Below are positions 9,388 to 51,484 of a DNA stretch of 64,000 nt, piece after piece. Every line of letters begins with the position of its first letter. Position 1 is the first letter of the stretch. The position numbers were made by a program, and so were the translations under genes. This DNA comes from Bacteroidota bacterium (GTDB lineage Bacteria; Bacteroidota; Bacteroidia; 2-12-FULL-35-15), in NCBI GenBank assembly GCA_029237775.1, contig JAQZBR010000005.1, forward strand, positions 186,001 through 250,000, read 5' to 3'. The notes beneath the pieces are model-generated. The model saw nothing but the letters and a program-made list of their open reading frames with translations. It ran no database searches and was not told the origin of the DNA.

Positions 9388-10107
9388 ATGAATAAAAAAT
9401 GCCGGATAATAATTTTTCTACTTTTCATGTCAACACTTGGCTTTAGCCAAAACAGAACAACGGTCTACCTTTTCCATGGCCAGGGCTCAGATGACCGTAT
9501 ATTTTCCAAACTGCACTTTGGGAATGATTATAAAGTAGTGAATATTGATTTTCCACTTCCCGATAAACACGAAACAATCAAAAGCTATGCACTTAAACTA
9601 AGCTCTCAAATTGATACAACAAGTAAATTCATTCTGATTGGTATGTCGCTTGGAGGAATGATCTGCAGTGAATTATCGGACGTTCTCAAACCCGAACATA
9701 CTATTATTATCTCAAGTGCAAAGTGCAGAAAAGAGCTTCCATTTCGATACAGATTTCAAAAAGACATTCCGTTGAACCGTATAGTTCCTGCAGGACTGAT
9801 TAAAGCAGGCGCATTATTCCTTCAACCGATTGTAGAGCCCGACAGGGATAAAGAGGAAGACACATTCAAAAGTATGCTAAAGGCGAAAGATCCCAGATAT
9901 CTTAAAAGAACGATCAATATGATCGTAAACTGGGATAAAGTGAATTACAGCAAGGACATCACTCATATTCACGGCAACAAAGATCATACAATTCCAGTCG
10001 AAAATGTGAAGGCGGACCATATTATTAAAGATGGATCACACATGATGACGCTGACACGCGCGGAAGAGCTCAACGCAATACTGCAAACTATTCTGGGAAG
10101 TAATTAA
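9388..10107 (+). CDS. Secreted alpha/beta hydrolase
   Basis: A 239-residue alpha/beta-hydrolase-fold protein. Residues 1-20 form a signal peptide ending at GFS/QN. The oxyanion segment FHGQGSDDR lies at 29-37, the nucleophile elbow GMSLGG puts Ser87 in a G-x-S-x-G context, the acid is probably the aspartate of GNKDHTIP near 199, and His218 in KDGSHMM completes the triad. This looks like a periplasmic esterase or lipase-like enzyme with no recognisable specific substrate. Its stop codon shares the palindrome TTAA with the stop of the convergent NlpC/P60 gene. Confidence 0.82.
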   Translation: MNKKCRIIIFLLFMSTLGFSQNRTTVYLFHGQGSDDRIFSKLHFGNDYKVVNIDFPLPDKHETIKSYALKLSSQIDTTSKFILIGMSLGGMICSELSDVLKPEHTIIISSAKCRKELPFRYRFQKDIPLNRIVPAGLIKAGALFLQPIVEPDRDKEEDTFKSMLKAKDPRYLKRTINMIVNWDKVNYSKDITHIHGNKDHTIPVENVKADHIIKDGSHMMTLTRAEELNAILQTILGSN

Positions 10108-10880
10108 ACGATACGCTTCAACAAACGCAAACGGTGGGAGTAATCTTTCTTTTCATTATTAAAGATGCCCTGATGATCGAAGCCATCGATGCGGACTTTG
10201 CCTGAAGCATGAATGATCTTATTATGATCCATTACGATTCCAACGTGGACAATTCTACCTTCGTCATTATCGAAGAAAGCAAGATCACCCGCTTCAGCCT
10301 CTTCAACAAAGCTTAAGGTCTCCCCCTGCTCTGCCTGCTGGTATGCATCACGTTTCAATTTGATGCCATTAAGCTTGTAAACCATCTGAGTGAACCCGCT
10401 GCAATCGATTCCGAAAGGAGTTTTTCCTCCCCAGAGATAGGGTGCATTCAGATACATCATCGCGGTTTCCATGATGCCCGCTTTTGTGAAAGGTAATCGT
10501 CCGTTAATGAAAGCCCCTTCATACAAATAACTTTGATTCTCAACGGCACACTCACCATTATCAAAATTTGGCAGTGTTGAACCGATCGGTACAGGAAATA
10601 ATTGTTTGGTATTGTTATGAGTGATGATCCCGATCAGCTCATTAATAGAATAGATCTCAGTAGAATTAAAAATATCGAATGTTGGCTGAGCAATCGGGAG
10701 AAACTGTTTTTTATCTATCCAGCATTCGTAATTATCGTAGCTGATCTTGATCCGGCACCAGCTCCCCAAAGTTTCAAGCACCTCGAAATGATCACCAAAA
10801 AGAAGCTGTGTTACCATCTCGCTTCGATCGGAGGCTTCCTTTCGGCAGGGGATTATACTTAAATTACAAATACCAAACAT
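10104..10880 (-). CDS. C40 (NlpC/P60) peptidase with N-terminal SH3-like domains
   Basis: A 258-residue cell-wall peptidase of the YkfC type. Residues 1-130 form SH3-like beta domains (LLFGDHFEVLETLGSWCRIKISYD; WIDKKQF). The NlpC/P60 domain follows, with the catalytic Cys160 in GIDCSGFTQMVY, His212 in IVHVGIVMD and His224 in IIHASG. No signal peptide is visible, so like cytoplasmic YkfC-type enzymes it may recycle muropeptide stems (gamma-D-Glu-diamino acid bonds) rather than cut intact wall. Its start lies just upstream of an inverted-repeat-framed gene that separates it from thiolase. Confidence 0.88.
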   Translation of the reverse strand: MFGICNLSIIPCRKEASDRSEMVTQLLFGDHFEVLETLGSWCRIKISYDNYECWIDKKQFLPIAQPTFDIFNSTEIYSINELIGIITHNNTKQLFPVPIGSTLPNFDNGECAVENQSYLYEGAFINGRLPFTKAGIMETAMMYLNAPYLWGGKTPFGIDCSGFTQMVYKLNGIKLKRDAYQQAEQGETLSFVEEAEAGDLAFFDNDEGRIVHVGIVMDHNKIIHASGKVRIDGFDHQGIFNNEKKDYSHRLRLLKRIV

Positions 10881-10889
10881 TGATTTCAG

Positions 10890-10908
10890 GTTCCAGGTTT
10901 AAAGTTTC
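10890..10908. repeat. Left inverted repeat framing the four-helix-bundle gene
   Basis: The 19-mer GTTCCAGGTTTAAAGTTTC matches the reverse complement of positions 11346-11364 at 17 of 19 bases. It sits in a slightly longer run of TTTCAGGTT-type units (10884-10913). Together the two copies frame the gene between them. Confidence 0.6.
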
Positions 10909-10926
10909 AGGTTGACGAACTAGTAA

Positions 10927-11334
10927 CTACGACTTCTGAAAAGTTTCCTTAAATTTTGTTCCTTTTACTTCAGTGGAATTAAGATATCTGATAAAGCTTT
11001 TTAGCTGTTTACTAATATCCTCAGCTTGCTTCCTCAATAATTGAAATTGTTCTTCTGTGATATGTTTACGATCCAGAGCACGGTATAATTGCGATCTCAC
11101 TTCACCGCATGAACCTTTAGCAATGCTTAAGAATTGTCGGAACTCAATTTTTCCATCACGTTCAAACCCTTCAGAAATATTGTCCATAACAGATCCGCTT
11201 GAACCATTTATCTGATCTCGAAGCTTAAAATCCCGTTCAAACGTTCCTGAGTTTGTAAGCGGATAAATAGCATTACATAAAGCTCGGGCATTCTTCCAAA
11301 CTTCAAGATCCTCAAACTTTTCTATTGTAGCCAT
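10927..11334 (-). CDS. Four-helix-bundle protein, 23S rRNA intervening-sequence (S23) type
   Basis: A 135-residue, mostly helical protein. The opening FEDLEVWKNARALCNAIY, the block LRDQINGSSGSVMDNISEGFER and the later GSCGEVRSQLYRALD are signatures of the IVS-encoded four-helix-bundle family first found in spirochaete 23S rRNA insertions, and related to the Avd accessory protein of diversity-generating retroelements. Function of the chromosomal, non-rRNA members is unknown. It stands alone between the NlpC and thiolase genes, framed 18 nt downstream of its stop and 11 nt upstream of its start by imperfect 19-bp inverted repeats, which suggests it arrived as a discrete unit. No reverse transcriptase is nearby. 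Confidence 0.88.
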   Translation of the reverse strand: MATIEKFEDLEVWKNARALCNAIYPLTNSGTFERDFKLRDQINGSSGSVMDNISEGFERDGKIEFRQFLSIAKGSCGEVRSQLYRALDRKHITEEQFQLLRKQAEDISKQLKSFIRYLNSTEVKGTKFKETFQKS

Positions 11335-11345
11335 ACACAGAACAT

Positions 11346-11364
11346 GAAACTTAAAACCTGAAAC
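11346..11364. repeat. Right inverted repeat framing the four-helix-bundle gene
   Basis: GAAACTTAAAACCTGAAAC is the inverted partner of 10890-10908 (17/19 matches). It ends 7 nt short of the thiolase stop codon. Confidence 0.6.
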
Positions 11365-11371
11365 TAAAAAA

Positions 11372-12550
11372 CTATACTAATTCCAAAACAACAGCGCTCG
11401 CACCGCCACCACCATTACAGATCCCGGCAGCACCGAATTTACCTTTGTTTTGTTTTAATACATTGATAAGAGTTACTATAATACGTGCTCCTGAACAACC
11501 AAGCGGATGTCCTAAAGAAACCGCACCACCGTTAACATTAACTTTTGAAGGGTCTAATTTCATTTTCTGCATGTTTACCAAACCTACAGTTGAGAATGCC
11601 TCATTAAGTTCGAAGTACTGCATGTCTTCCATTTTCATACCTGCTTTTGCAACAGCTTTCGGAACTGCGATGGAAGGAGTAGTTGTAAACCATTCAGGAG
11701 CCTGTTCTGCATCAGCGTAACCGCGAAGGATCGCGATTGGCTTTACACCAAGCTTTTCTGCCTTTTCTTTGCTCATCAAAACAACAGCTGCAGCGCCATC
11801 GTTCATAGTCGAAGAGTTTGCAGCAGTCGCTGTTCCTTCTTTAGAAAATGCTCCTTTTAATTCAGGGATCTTATCGAAACGCACATTTTTATACTCTTCA
11901 TCTTCTTTCATTAGGATCGGATCGCCTTTACGCTGAGGAATCTCCACAGGTACGATCTCGTCATTGAATTTTCCGGCAGCCCAGGCAGCCTGTGAACGCT
12001 TGTACGATTCGATAGCAAATTTATCCTGGTCTTCACGGGAGATATTGCACTCTTTCGCACACATATCAGCAGCATTTCCCATCGCGTAATTATTGTACAC
12101 ATCGGTCAAACCGTCTTTCGCAAGTCCATCGATCATAGTAACATTGCCATATTTGCTTCCCCAACGAAGGTTCTCACTATAAAAAGGAACCGCGCTCATG
12201 TTCTCCATTCCTCCTGCAACAACAACATCAGCATCACCACACATAATGCTTTGTGCACCGATCGTGATCGCTTTCATTCCTGAAGCACAAACCTTATTGA
12301 TCGTAGTCGCCTGAACAGTGTCGGGTAAACCTGCGAACTTAGCTGCCTGACGTGCAGGAGCTTGTCCGAGGTTAGCCTGTAATACACTTCCCATATAAAC
12401 TTCCTGAACTTCTTTAGCATCAACACCTGCTTTTTCCAAAGCACCTTTGATTGCTGCAGCGCCTAATTTAGTTGCAGAAACACCTGCCAGTGCACCGCCA
12501 AAACTTCCCATTGGCGTACGTACTGCCGAAATGATATAAACTTCTTTCAT
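11372..12550 (-). CDS. Acetyl-CoA C-acetyltransferase (thiolase)
   Basis: A 392-residue biosynthetic-type thiolase that condenses or cleaves acetoacetyl-CoA. The acylated nucleophile is Cys88 in INKVCASGM, the general-base histidine is His348 in GHPLGCSG, and Cys378 in ICNGGGGAS is the second active-site cysteine. Length and motifs fit AtoB/PhaA-type enzymes throughout, with no insertions. It is monocistronic as far as can be seen: a good Bacteroidota-type promoter lies 53-84 nt upstream, and downstream comes the framed four-helix-bundle gene. Roles in ketone-body or amino-acid catabolism cannot be separated from sequence. Confidence 0.95.
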   Translation of the reverse strand: MKEVYIISAVRTPMGSFGGALAGVSATKLGAAAIKGALEKAGVDAKEVQEVYMGSVLQANLGQAPARQAAKFAGLPDTVQATTINKVCASGMKAITIGAQSIMCGDADVVVAGGMENMSAVPFYSENLRWGSKYGNVTMIDGLAKDGLTDVYNNYAMGNAADMCAKECNISREDQDKFAIESYKRSQAAWAAGKFNDEIVPVEIPQRKGDPILMKEDEEYKNVRFDKIPELKGAFSKEGTATAANSSTMNDGAAAVVLMSKEKAEKLGVKPIAILRGYADAEQAPEWFTTTPSIAVPKAVAKAGMKMEDMQYFELNEAFSTVGLVNMQKMKLDPSKVNVNGGAVSLGHPLGCSGARIIVTLINVLKQNKGKFGAAGICNGGGGASAVVLELV

Positions 12551-50782: not shown

Positions 50783-51427
50783 ATGAAGCGAGCACGTTAT
50801 GCCCTTTTACTTTCATTAGTTATTTTTTCGCTGGCATTTACCAGGACCGAAGGCGGTGGAACGGACACAAAGTCTGATAAGATCATCTCCACGTTTGAGG
50901 TGAGGTCATTTAAGATCAGCAACAGCATGGTAAGCTGGACCTCAGTAAACGAACATGGTTCGCTCCCCTATATCGTTGAACAATACATATTTGATAAATG
51001 GGTAAAAGTTGGCGAAGTTAGTGGTGTAGGGAACCCGGCTCCGAATTCATATTCAGTTCCGGTTATTTTGAGCAGCGGGGAAAATAAGTTTCGTGTGCGA
51101 CAAAAAGGTTACGATAAGATCAGCCGCTTTTCAGATGCTGTCACCTATTATTCAAAAAAAGAACCTGTATCCTATGAAGTGAAAGACCATAATCAAACAA
51201 TCTCTTTTTCTTCTGATACTTACTTTATTATTTATAACCCATACGGTGCAATTGTAAAACAAGGCTATGGTAATTCAGTTAACATTTCAGAATATGCTAA
51301 GGGATACTATTGTCTCATCTATGATAATAAGCTGGGCGGCTTCGACAAAAAGAAAGTGCTTTTCAAAAACAGCTTTTGTCCGGTTGTGATAGATCCACCG
51401 AACTGGATGAAAAAGAAAAGTTCGTAG
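50783..51427 (+). CDS. Secreted protein of unknown function
   Basis: A 214-residue protein with a signal peptide (residues 1-20, ending near AFTRTEGG). The body is beta-rich and contains a fibronectin III-like segment (TFEVRSFKISNSMVSWTSVNEHGSLPYIVEQYIFDKWVKVGEV is its core, about 38-82; GENKFRVRQKGYD about 98-110), then a second small beta domain. The end is not a recognised T9SS type A or B domain. A TACTTTTG box (50747-50754) matching the -7 consensus lies 29 nt upstream. Confidence 0.75.
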   Translation: MKRARYALLLSLVIFSLAFTRTEGGGTDTKSDKIISTFEVRSFKISNSMVSWTSVNEHGSLPYIVEQYIFDKWVKVGEVSGVGNPAPNSYSVPVILSSGENKFRVRQKGYDKISRFSDAVTYYSKKEPVSYEVKDHNQTISFSSDTYFIIYNPYGAIVKQGYGNSVNISEYAKGYYCLIYDNKLGGFDKKKVLFKNSFCPVVIDPPNWMKKKSS

Positions 51428-51484
51428 TTTTTAGTTCATAGTTCGTAGACGATGCATCTTGAGATTGAAATTTTAATACAAGTT

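Follow-up and report, generated by a model that had tools for sequence, protein, structure and literature searches.

Inverted arrays of heptamer words frame an IVP family gene between two protein-coding genes of a Bacteroidota bacterium

Results

The window analyzed here is a stretch of 64,000 nucleotides from the genome of a Bacteroidota bacterium (4.08 Mb in 12 contigs). Within it, a small gene lies between an NlpC/P60 endopeptidase-like gene and a thiolase gene, and all three are read from the minus strand (Table 1). A preliminary description of the locus, made from the letters alone, had proposed a 136-codon IVS-type gene enclosed by inverted repeats and set between two housekeeping genes. 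Both points are borne out by the ORF, which comprises 135 amino acids plus a stop codon, by its same-strand neighbors, and by profile searches of its product, which scored 116.1 bits against PF05635 (23S rRNA IVP; curated cutoff, 33.8; E = 1e-33) and 107.5 bits against TIGR02436 (curated cutoff, 24; E = 4e-31). The distance to the NlpC start codon is 9 nt for one arm, and 7 nt separate the end of the second arm from the thiolase stop codon. Besides the IVP gene, no further ORF was found in the unit, which contains no transposase, and a search against Rfam gave no match within the window. In a structure search, the AlphaFold2 model of the protein (pLDDT, 91.1) had 2gsc and 2rld as its nearest solved structures, followed by Avd (4dwl_D; TM, 0.71 over the query; probability, 1.00; E = 0.019).

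Table 1. Features of the IVP locus and gene-less arrays in the window
Feature	Position	Strand	Basis or remark
NlpC/P60 endopeptidase-like gene, downstream neighbor, outside the unit	10104-10880	minus	ORF list, profile search
Arm 3' of the IVP gene, inverted; plus strand GTTCCAG GTTTAAA GTTTCAG GTT	10890-10913	plus	
IVP gene, 135 aa, predicted four-helix bundle, PF05635 / TIGR02436	10927-11334	minus	ORF list, profile search, AlphaFold2
Arm 5' of the IVP gene; gene sense GTTTCAG GTTTTAA GTTTCAT GTT, 7-nt words	11341-11364	minus	
Acetyl-CoA acyltransferase (thiolase) gene, upstream neighbor, outside the unit	11372-12550	minus	ORF list, profile search
Gene-less array, lag 14	6385-6421		
Gene-less array, lag 14	32052-32087		
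Gene-less heptamer array AGTTCGTAG...	51419-51448	plus	best match among the six own arms L005, score 15.5

Reverse-complement comparison reproduced the pairing given for the repeats in the preliminary description (17/19 bases between 10890-10908 and 11346-11364), and over the full arms the match extends to 21 of 24 nt. A feature that had gone unnoticed is that the repeats are inverted arrays of 7-nt words of the GTTTCAG type, with a lag of 7 or 14, and that the periodic stretch of the 3' arm starts already at 10884. Local alignment of the 150 nt on each side of the ORF gave a score of 16.5, which was reached by 0/1000 dinucleotide shuffles of these flanks (mean, 7.7; maximum, 14.5). The host genome carries six IVP genes at unrelated sites, each with inverted arms of a different word. 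Framing by inverted repeats is thus confirmed at this locus, and the locus exemplifies a more general pattern.

The breadth of that pattern was assessed with an inverted flank score, which was at least 13 at 131/173 IVP loci and at 14/587 control genes, these being ordinary genes of 90 to 300 codons. The top-scoring control gene was itself an IVP gene, with 31/31 bases paired. By sample, arms scoring at least 13 were found at 32/34 loci of the genus, 14/19 extra copies, and 17/17 loci of genome G026, as well as at 17/30 loci of the phylum sample and 51/73 of the named sample, both of which consist of best-scoring matches and not of random draws. The 42/173 IVP loci under the threshold include 13 of the 30 in the phylum sample. 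The named-contig set used 72 of 74 loci, from 80 returned. A few rows of the whole data set are near-copies (L032/L033, L107/L109, L120/L122, and L333/L334), and one place was counted twice (L015 = L278). A lag of 7 was best in 174/346 IVP flanks versus 101/1174 control flanks, and the only lags raised around IVP genes were 7, 8, and their multiples. In the genus (34/35 loci used; 68 flanks), the best lag was 7 in 48 flanks and 14 in 11, and the inverted match between a locus's own arms averaged 19.0, compared with 10.2 between loci and 11.4 in direct orientation.

PF05635 was present in 35/36 genus genomes, with up to 19 copies in a single genome, and in 157/198 phylum genomes. Arms recur at IVP loci drawn across the phylum and were also seen in named contigs, examples being Ignavibacteriae, Clostridia, Acidobacteria, Desulfosarcina, Parcubacteria, and Uhrbacteria. 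At cyanobacterial plasmid IVP loci (12 loci, two of them near-copies, out of 37 plasmid records matched), arms were found in 12/12, with words that include TAGGGAG, GGGAACA, and AGGGTGT. One query returned no phage records matching IVP, and Rfam detected no rRNA at 20 IVP loci from other phyla or contig edges. Three IVP elements lay inside CRISPR-cas gene clusters (L326 1189-1548, L331 1183-1551, and L332 1183-1539), the sites being cas6/cas4 in Pseudanabaena and Anabaena plasmids and cas10/Cmr3-family gene in Picosynechococcus. At another locus (L289; G026:C9), the IVP frame is interrupted by stops, and the arms still match with a score of 18.0.

Words and phases were analyzed in the 100 loci with clear arms (score of at least 13), where the period was 7 on both sides in 75, 8 in 14, and 9 in 3; example words are AGATTTG at period 7 (L017) and AGGCACAG at period 8 (L116). 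Aligned by phase, the words approximate AGWTNTN, with A at 0.78, G at 0.86-0.91, and C almost absent. The AG core carried 2.75 bits in the left arm and 3.01 bits in the right arm, versus at most 2.06 and 2.18 bits, respectively, when columns were permuted within each arm. Mismatches between the two arms depended on word phase, occurring in 17/382 cases at the G and in 98/352 at phase 4 (P = 7e-19). Since mismatches avoid the AG core, the pattern is the one expected of a recognized word and not of base pairing alone. Agreement in word order between arms was weak (1/58 loci at P of at most 0.05). The number of words per arm was about 4.4 at period 7 and 4.7 at both period 8 and period 9; arms become longer as the period increases (P = 1e-4), and their word number shows no clear change (P = 0.12).

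Period and word go with the type of protein rather than with the host genome. Period-8 rows cluster on the protein tree, requiring 5 changes, and an enlarged tree of 114 loci with period 7, 8, or 9 requires 11; in both cases 0/500 shuffles needed as few. The period tree is poorly resolved, the nearest neighbor being of period 8 for just 12/22 period-8 proteins. IVPs of differing period coexist inside five single genomes, each with its own arms, and the 17 IVP copies fetched from G026, all framed, span periods 7, 8, and 9. Across 89 period-7 loci, word similarity climbed with protein identity (3.14 at 25-35%, 3.84 at 55-70%, and 5.16 above 70%; 0/500 permutations), a trend that could be due to plain descent and not to recognition. 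Within a site, an element's own arms matched each other better than they matched arms from other genomes in 6/6 cases at each of two sites; at one of these, fadA|acd, the two protein groups may represent two separate insertions. No such coupling appeared at fadB|fadA (own arms, 21.3; other genomes' arms, 21.1; 5/9). In L300 (G011) and L318 (G026), fadA is flanked on both sides by IVP elements within a single operon, the words of the two elements being of the AGATTTG and GTATCAG types. Very long direct arrays of a single heptamer, a sign of recent slippage, were seen downstream of a dehydrogenase gene (L350; G026) and as the left arm of L303 (G015), with the words GTTGTTG and GATGTGA.

IVP genes are mostly placed in the sense of their surroundings. 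Both neighbors were found for 61 of 64 loci, and the IVP gene was in sense with both at 48/61 and antisense to both at 3/61, compared with proportions of 0.46 co-directional and 0.13 with the middle gene antisense to both among ordinary gene triples. By annotation, 3/12 cyanobacterial units are antisense to both neighbors.

The unit also comes and goes at given sites, as seen at two junctions whose states (hairpin, empty, or other) were sorted by eye in 30 relatives each. The thiolase|NlpC junction holds an IVP unit in 6 relatives, a gene-less heptamer hairpin in 10, and another hairpin in 12, the remaining relatives having one 21-nt gap and one half array. At fadB|fadA, the corresponding states are a unit in 9, a 3-6 nt gap in 6, a gene-less heptamer hairpin in 5, and others in 9, and in G033 a remnant comprises the apparent 3' end of an IVP gene and one arm. 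On a tree built from four flanking proteins, the nine fadB|fadA carriers need 9 changes and the six thiolase|NlpC carriers need 5. The view of a discrete, cassette-like unit put forward in the preliminary description agrees with this presence and absence at two junctions and with dispersal over six sites of the genome, and the fixation in all relatives that would have spoken against it is not seen, with carriers at 6/30 and 9/30. In 8/9 filled fadB|fadA junctions, the fadB stop codon is TAG, its AG being the first one in the array, versus 2/21 elsewhere (P = 6e-5); a larger set of loci shows a mild excess of TAG stops (34/87 versus 84/341; P = 0.01). Other elements are found at the same junctions. 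At fadB|fadA, L316 (G034) carries a different small cassette, with an ORF in which a nucleotidyltransferase-like GSRA motif was noted by eye, and in L306 (G012) another ORF ends on its right side in a heptamer array. Other intergenic hairpins (for example, CCTCCCC..GGGGAGG), which belong to a different palindrome family, occur at these junctions in L298, L324, L078, and others.

Arrays are also found without a gene, in the window (Table 1) and beyond it. Twenty gene-less heptamer arrays were listed in the host genome, one of them found by its word and the others in 464 kb of sequence. Their likeness to the six words of this genome exceeds that to random six-word sets from other genera (0/2000 as good), whereas sets taken from sister species are not clearly worse (191/2000 as good). 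Some genomes have heptamer hairpins downstream (3') of a 3-hydroxyacyl-CoA dehydrogenase-like gene, a site at which an IVP gene was found in 0/30, so not every gene-less array is the relic of a local IVP gene. A heptamer hairpin is kept in G023, a genome without IVP. In 100 kb from each of five IVP-less genomes, 0 arrays with an inverted partner were found, a result that is at most suggestive because three of these genomes are GC-rich (0.64-0.65) and 2/6 other IVP-bearing genomes also gave 0. Repeats occurring singly without the gene had been named in the preliminary description as evidence against a unit. This is partly the situation, in that the word is found elsewhere in the genome and gene-less arrays are common; we read these arrays as dispersal or decay of arms, not as proof against the unit.

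The further claim that the unit is mobile fared less well. Among the 17 copies fetched from copy-rich G026, none were near-identical, the best long match being ~75% over 254 nt, which speaks against recent transposition. No target duplication was seen between filled and empty fadB|fadA junctions, and with no transposase either, the unit does not qualify as a transposon or IS element. Divergence of the unit tracks that of the flanking genes in 35/36 genome pairs. The single outlier is G026/G027 (element, 0.931; flanks, 0.853; z = 4.9), in which the similar tract starts ~110-130 nt inside fadB and therefore looks like ordinary recombination, not transposition; horizontal transfer was rejected on the basis of this one pair in 36 and its appearance. 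Inheritance of the unit thus looks mostly vertical, to judge from these sequence comparisons. The IVP gene is under purifying selection, with pN/pS of 0.14 (21 pairs) and 0.18 (3 pairs). Values of pN of 0.3-0.6 for fadA (pairs with G006, G017, and G013) were discarded, as they came from ungapped codon comparison across indels. Selection, divergence that follows the flanks, and scattered presence together suggest that the unit is old, kept intact as something useful, and often lost.

Discussion

We know of no function assigned to IVP proteins since they were first noticed in rRNA insertions. The Coxiella burnetii 23S IVS resembles the window unit in holding a PF05635-type ORF within terminal inverted repeats, and tandem heptamers (GACAGAT), which vary in number between strains, lie beside that ORF (PMC4990558). 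By its letters, GACAGAT rotates to AGATGAC. The two differ in location, in that the Coxiella IVS sits in helix 45 of the 23S rRNA and is excised by RNase III, whereas the window unit lies between two protein genes. In the sections of PMC4990558 drawn on here, the heptamers are not generalized to IVP genes elsewhere. IVP ORFs also occur in rRNA insertions of CPR bacteria (PMC11270868). Intergenic heptamer arrays in the same bacterial groups are known as the TAACTGA direct repeats, which in Beggiatoaceae, Cyanobacteria, and Bacteroidetes lie near start codons, were described without a mechanism, and had their origin left open (PMC4679880); the words "intervening" and "S23" are absent from that text. 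The complement of TAACTGA, TCAGTTA, rotates to AGTTATC, which would fit AGWTNTN. A general link between heptamer arms and IVP genes was not found in the open-access journal literature searched.

On balance, we favor the interpretation that the window unit is an intergenic relative of the rRNA IVS, whose ends are probably cognate binding arrays for a ring-shaped IVP, the unit being kept or moved by that binding. Both 2gsc and 2rld have five chains, and 2gsc, a Xanthomonas protein, is a homopentameric torus (PMC4990558). The encoded IVP would likewise form a pentameric ring and bind the arrays with about one word per subunit, and the same protein would grip both ends of the element. Through this end binding, the unit would be maintained or moved as a whole, any strand cutting or copying coming from host functions. 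The element would mostly be inherited in place, frequently be lost with gene-less hairpins left behind, and rarely move between lineages. A role of this binding in movement, over and above regulation, is in our estimate doubtful.

A bolder version of this proposal, which we offer tentatively, is that IVPs are ring readers, in which each of the five subunits takes one AG-anchored 7-9-mer. Each type of protein would have a private word, with about five copies per end, by which it keeps or spreads both the element and its hairpins. A ring of comparable habit is TRAP, which takes NAG triplets. The TAACTGA repeats and the STRR, the long-known heptamers of cyanobacteria, would then be footprints of such proteins, and the arrangement would amount to a REPIN/RAYT-like system built on a nonenzymatic protein.

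The main rival to binding by the IVP acts at the level of RNA. The arms would pair in the transcript, RNase III would cut the resulting stem, and the unit would leave the operon mRNA, which would render the insertion harmless and leave the arms to be kept for pairing. The Coxiella 23S IVS is excised in this manner, with a 28-bp terminal stem and the ORF in the loop (PMC4990558). The sense orientation at 48/61 loci is in accord with such a process, as is the fold of the window unit's RNA, in which the arms are paired (z = -2.33). However, G.U mismatches are not in excess in the sense RNA (74 versus 93 in the antisense; P = 0.16), and the 3/12 cyanobacterial units antisense to both neighbors do not suit excision from an operon transcript. 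Moreover, mismatches depend on phase, and period and word are tied to the protein, neither of which pairing alone demands. We therefore regard this explanation as rather unlikely.

Regulation alone appears similarly improbable to us. The arrays would be operators at which IVP regulates the operon that contains it, and the gene would be an ordinary, nonmobile regulatory gene that is often lost. Purifying selection, mostly vertical inheritance, and the arrangement of one protein with two arrays around its own gene are what such a regulator would present. It would account poorly, however, for nine carriers that need 9 changes and stand beside empty sites with 3-6 nt gaps, for up to 19 copies per genome, and for insertions in plasmid, CRISPR-cas, and rRNA contexts.

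Binding of the arrays by IVP can also be set against REPIN- or MITE-like repeats moved in trans by a Y1 transposase or a reverse transcriptase, with the framing of IVP genes a coincidence. REPIN/RAYT systems are similar in consisting of short palindromic intergenic units, with or without a partner gene, and in having a gene-specific word. They differ in that the RAYT is a Y1 transposase, while the partner in the window is a PF05635 four-helix bundle without a known catalytic site, no Y1 (HUH) transposase being part of the unit, and in that the window-type word is a tandem 7-9-mer, unlike a REPIN. The host genome does have one Y1_Tnp gene and one RVT_1 gene, and gene-less heptamer hairpins exist, including at the junction that is free of IVP in 30 relatives. 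Against this, Y1_Tnp is found in 29/36 and RVT_1 in 17/36 genus genomes, compared with 35/36 for IVP; no RVT_1 match was obtained in G026, the genome with the most IVP genes; the Y1_Tnp gene of the host lacks heptamer arms; and ordinary genes are unframed (14/587). These observations make a trans-acting enzyme of this kind a poor candidate. Chance framing by AT-rich slippage repeats and hairpins around any small gene, for which the other kinds of intergenic hairpin common at the same junctions might be cited, is refuted by the contrast between 131/173 IVP loci and 14/587 controls and by the restriction of raised lags to 7, 8, and their multiples.

Intergenic heptamers have been noted separately in cyanobacteria, Beggiatoaceae, and Bacteroidetes, in each case without a partner protein. 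Joining the arrays to IVP gives a candidate protein for each repeat and a candidate ligand for each protein, readable from the protein's own flanks, and makes repeat and protein both testable by one binding assay. The arms around IVP genes may thereby explain short repeats that have been puzzling for decades.

The predicted fold of the window IVP is shared with Avd (4dwl), the accessory protein of diversity-generating retroelements (DGRs), to which PF05635 is homologous (PMC10053308). Unlike a DGR with its Avd, the window gene has no reverse transcriptase beside it, the genome's sole RVT_1 gene being on contig C5 and the window on C4. A DGR-like cluster was encountered in L037 (560-1180 onward; G001:C95), where a protein end with the look of a variable repeat, an Avd-like protein, an IVP, and a reverse transcriptase occur together; the roles were judged by eye, and the IVP, which has arms of 9-nt period, seems to be inserted into the DGR.
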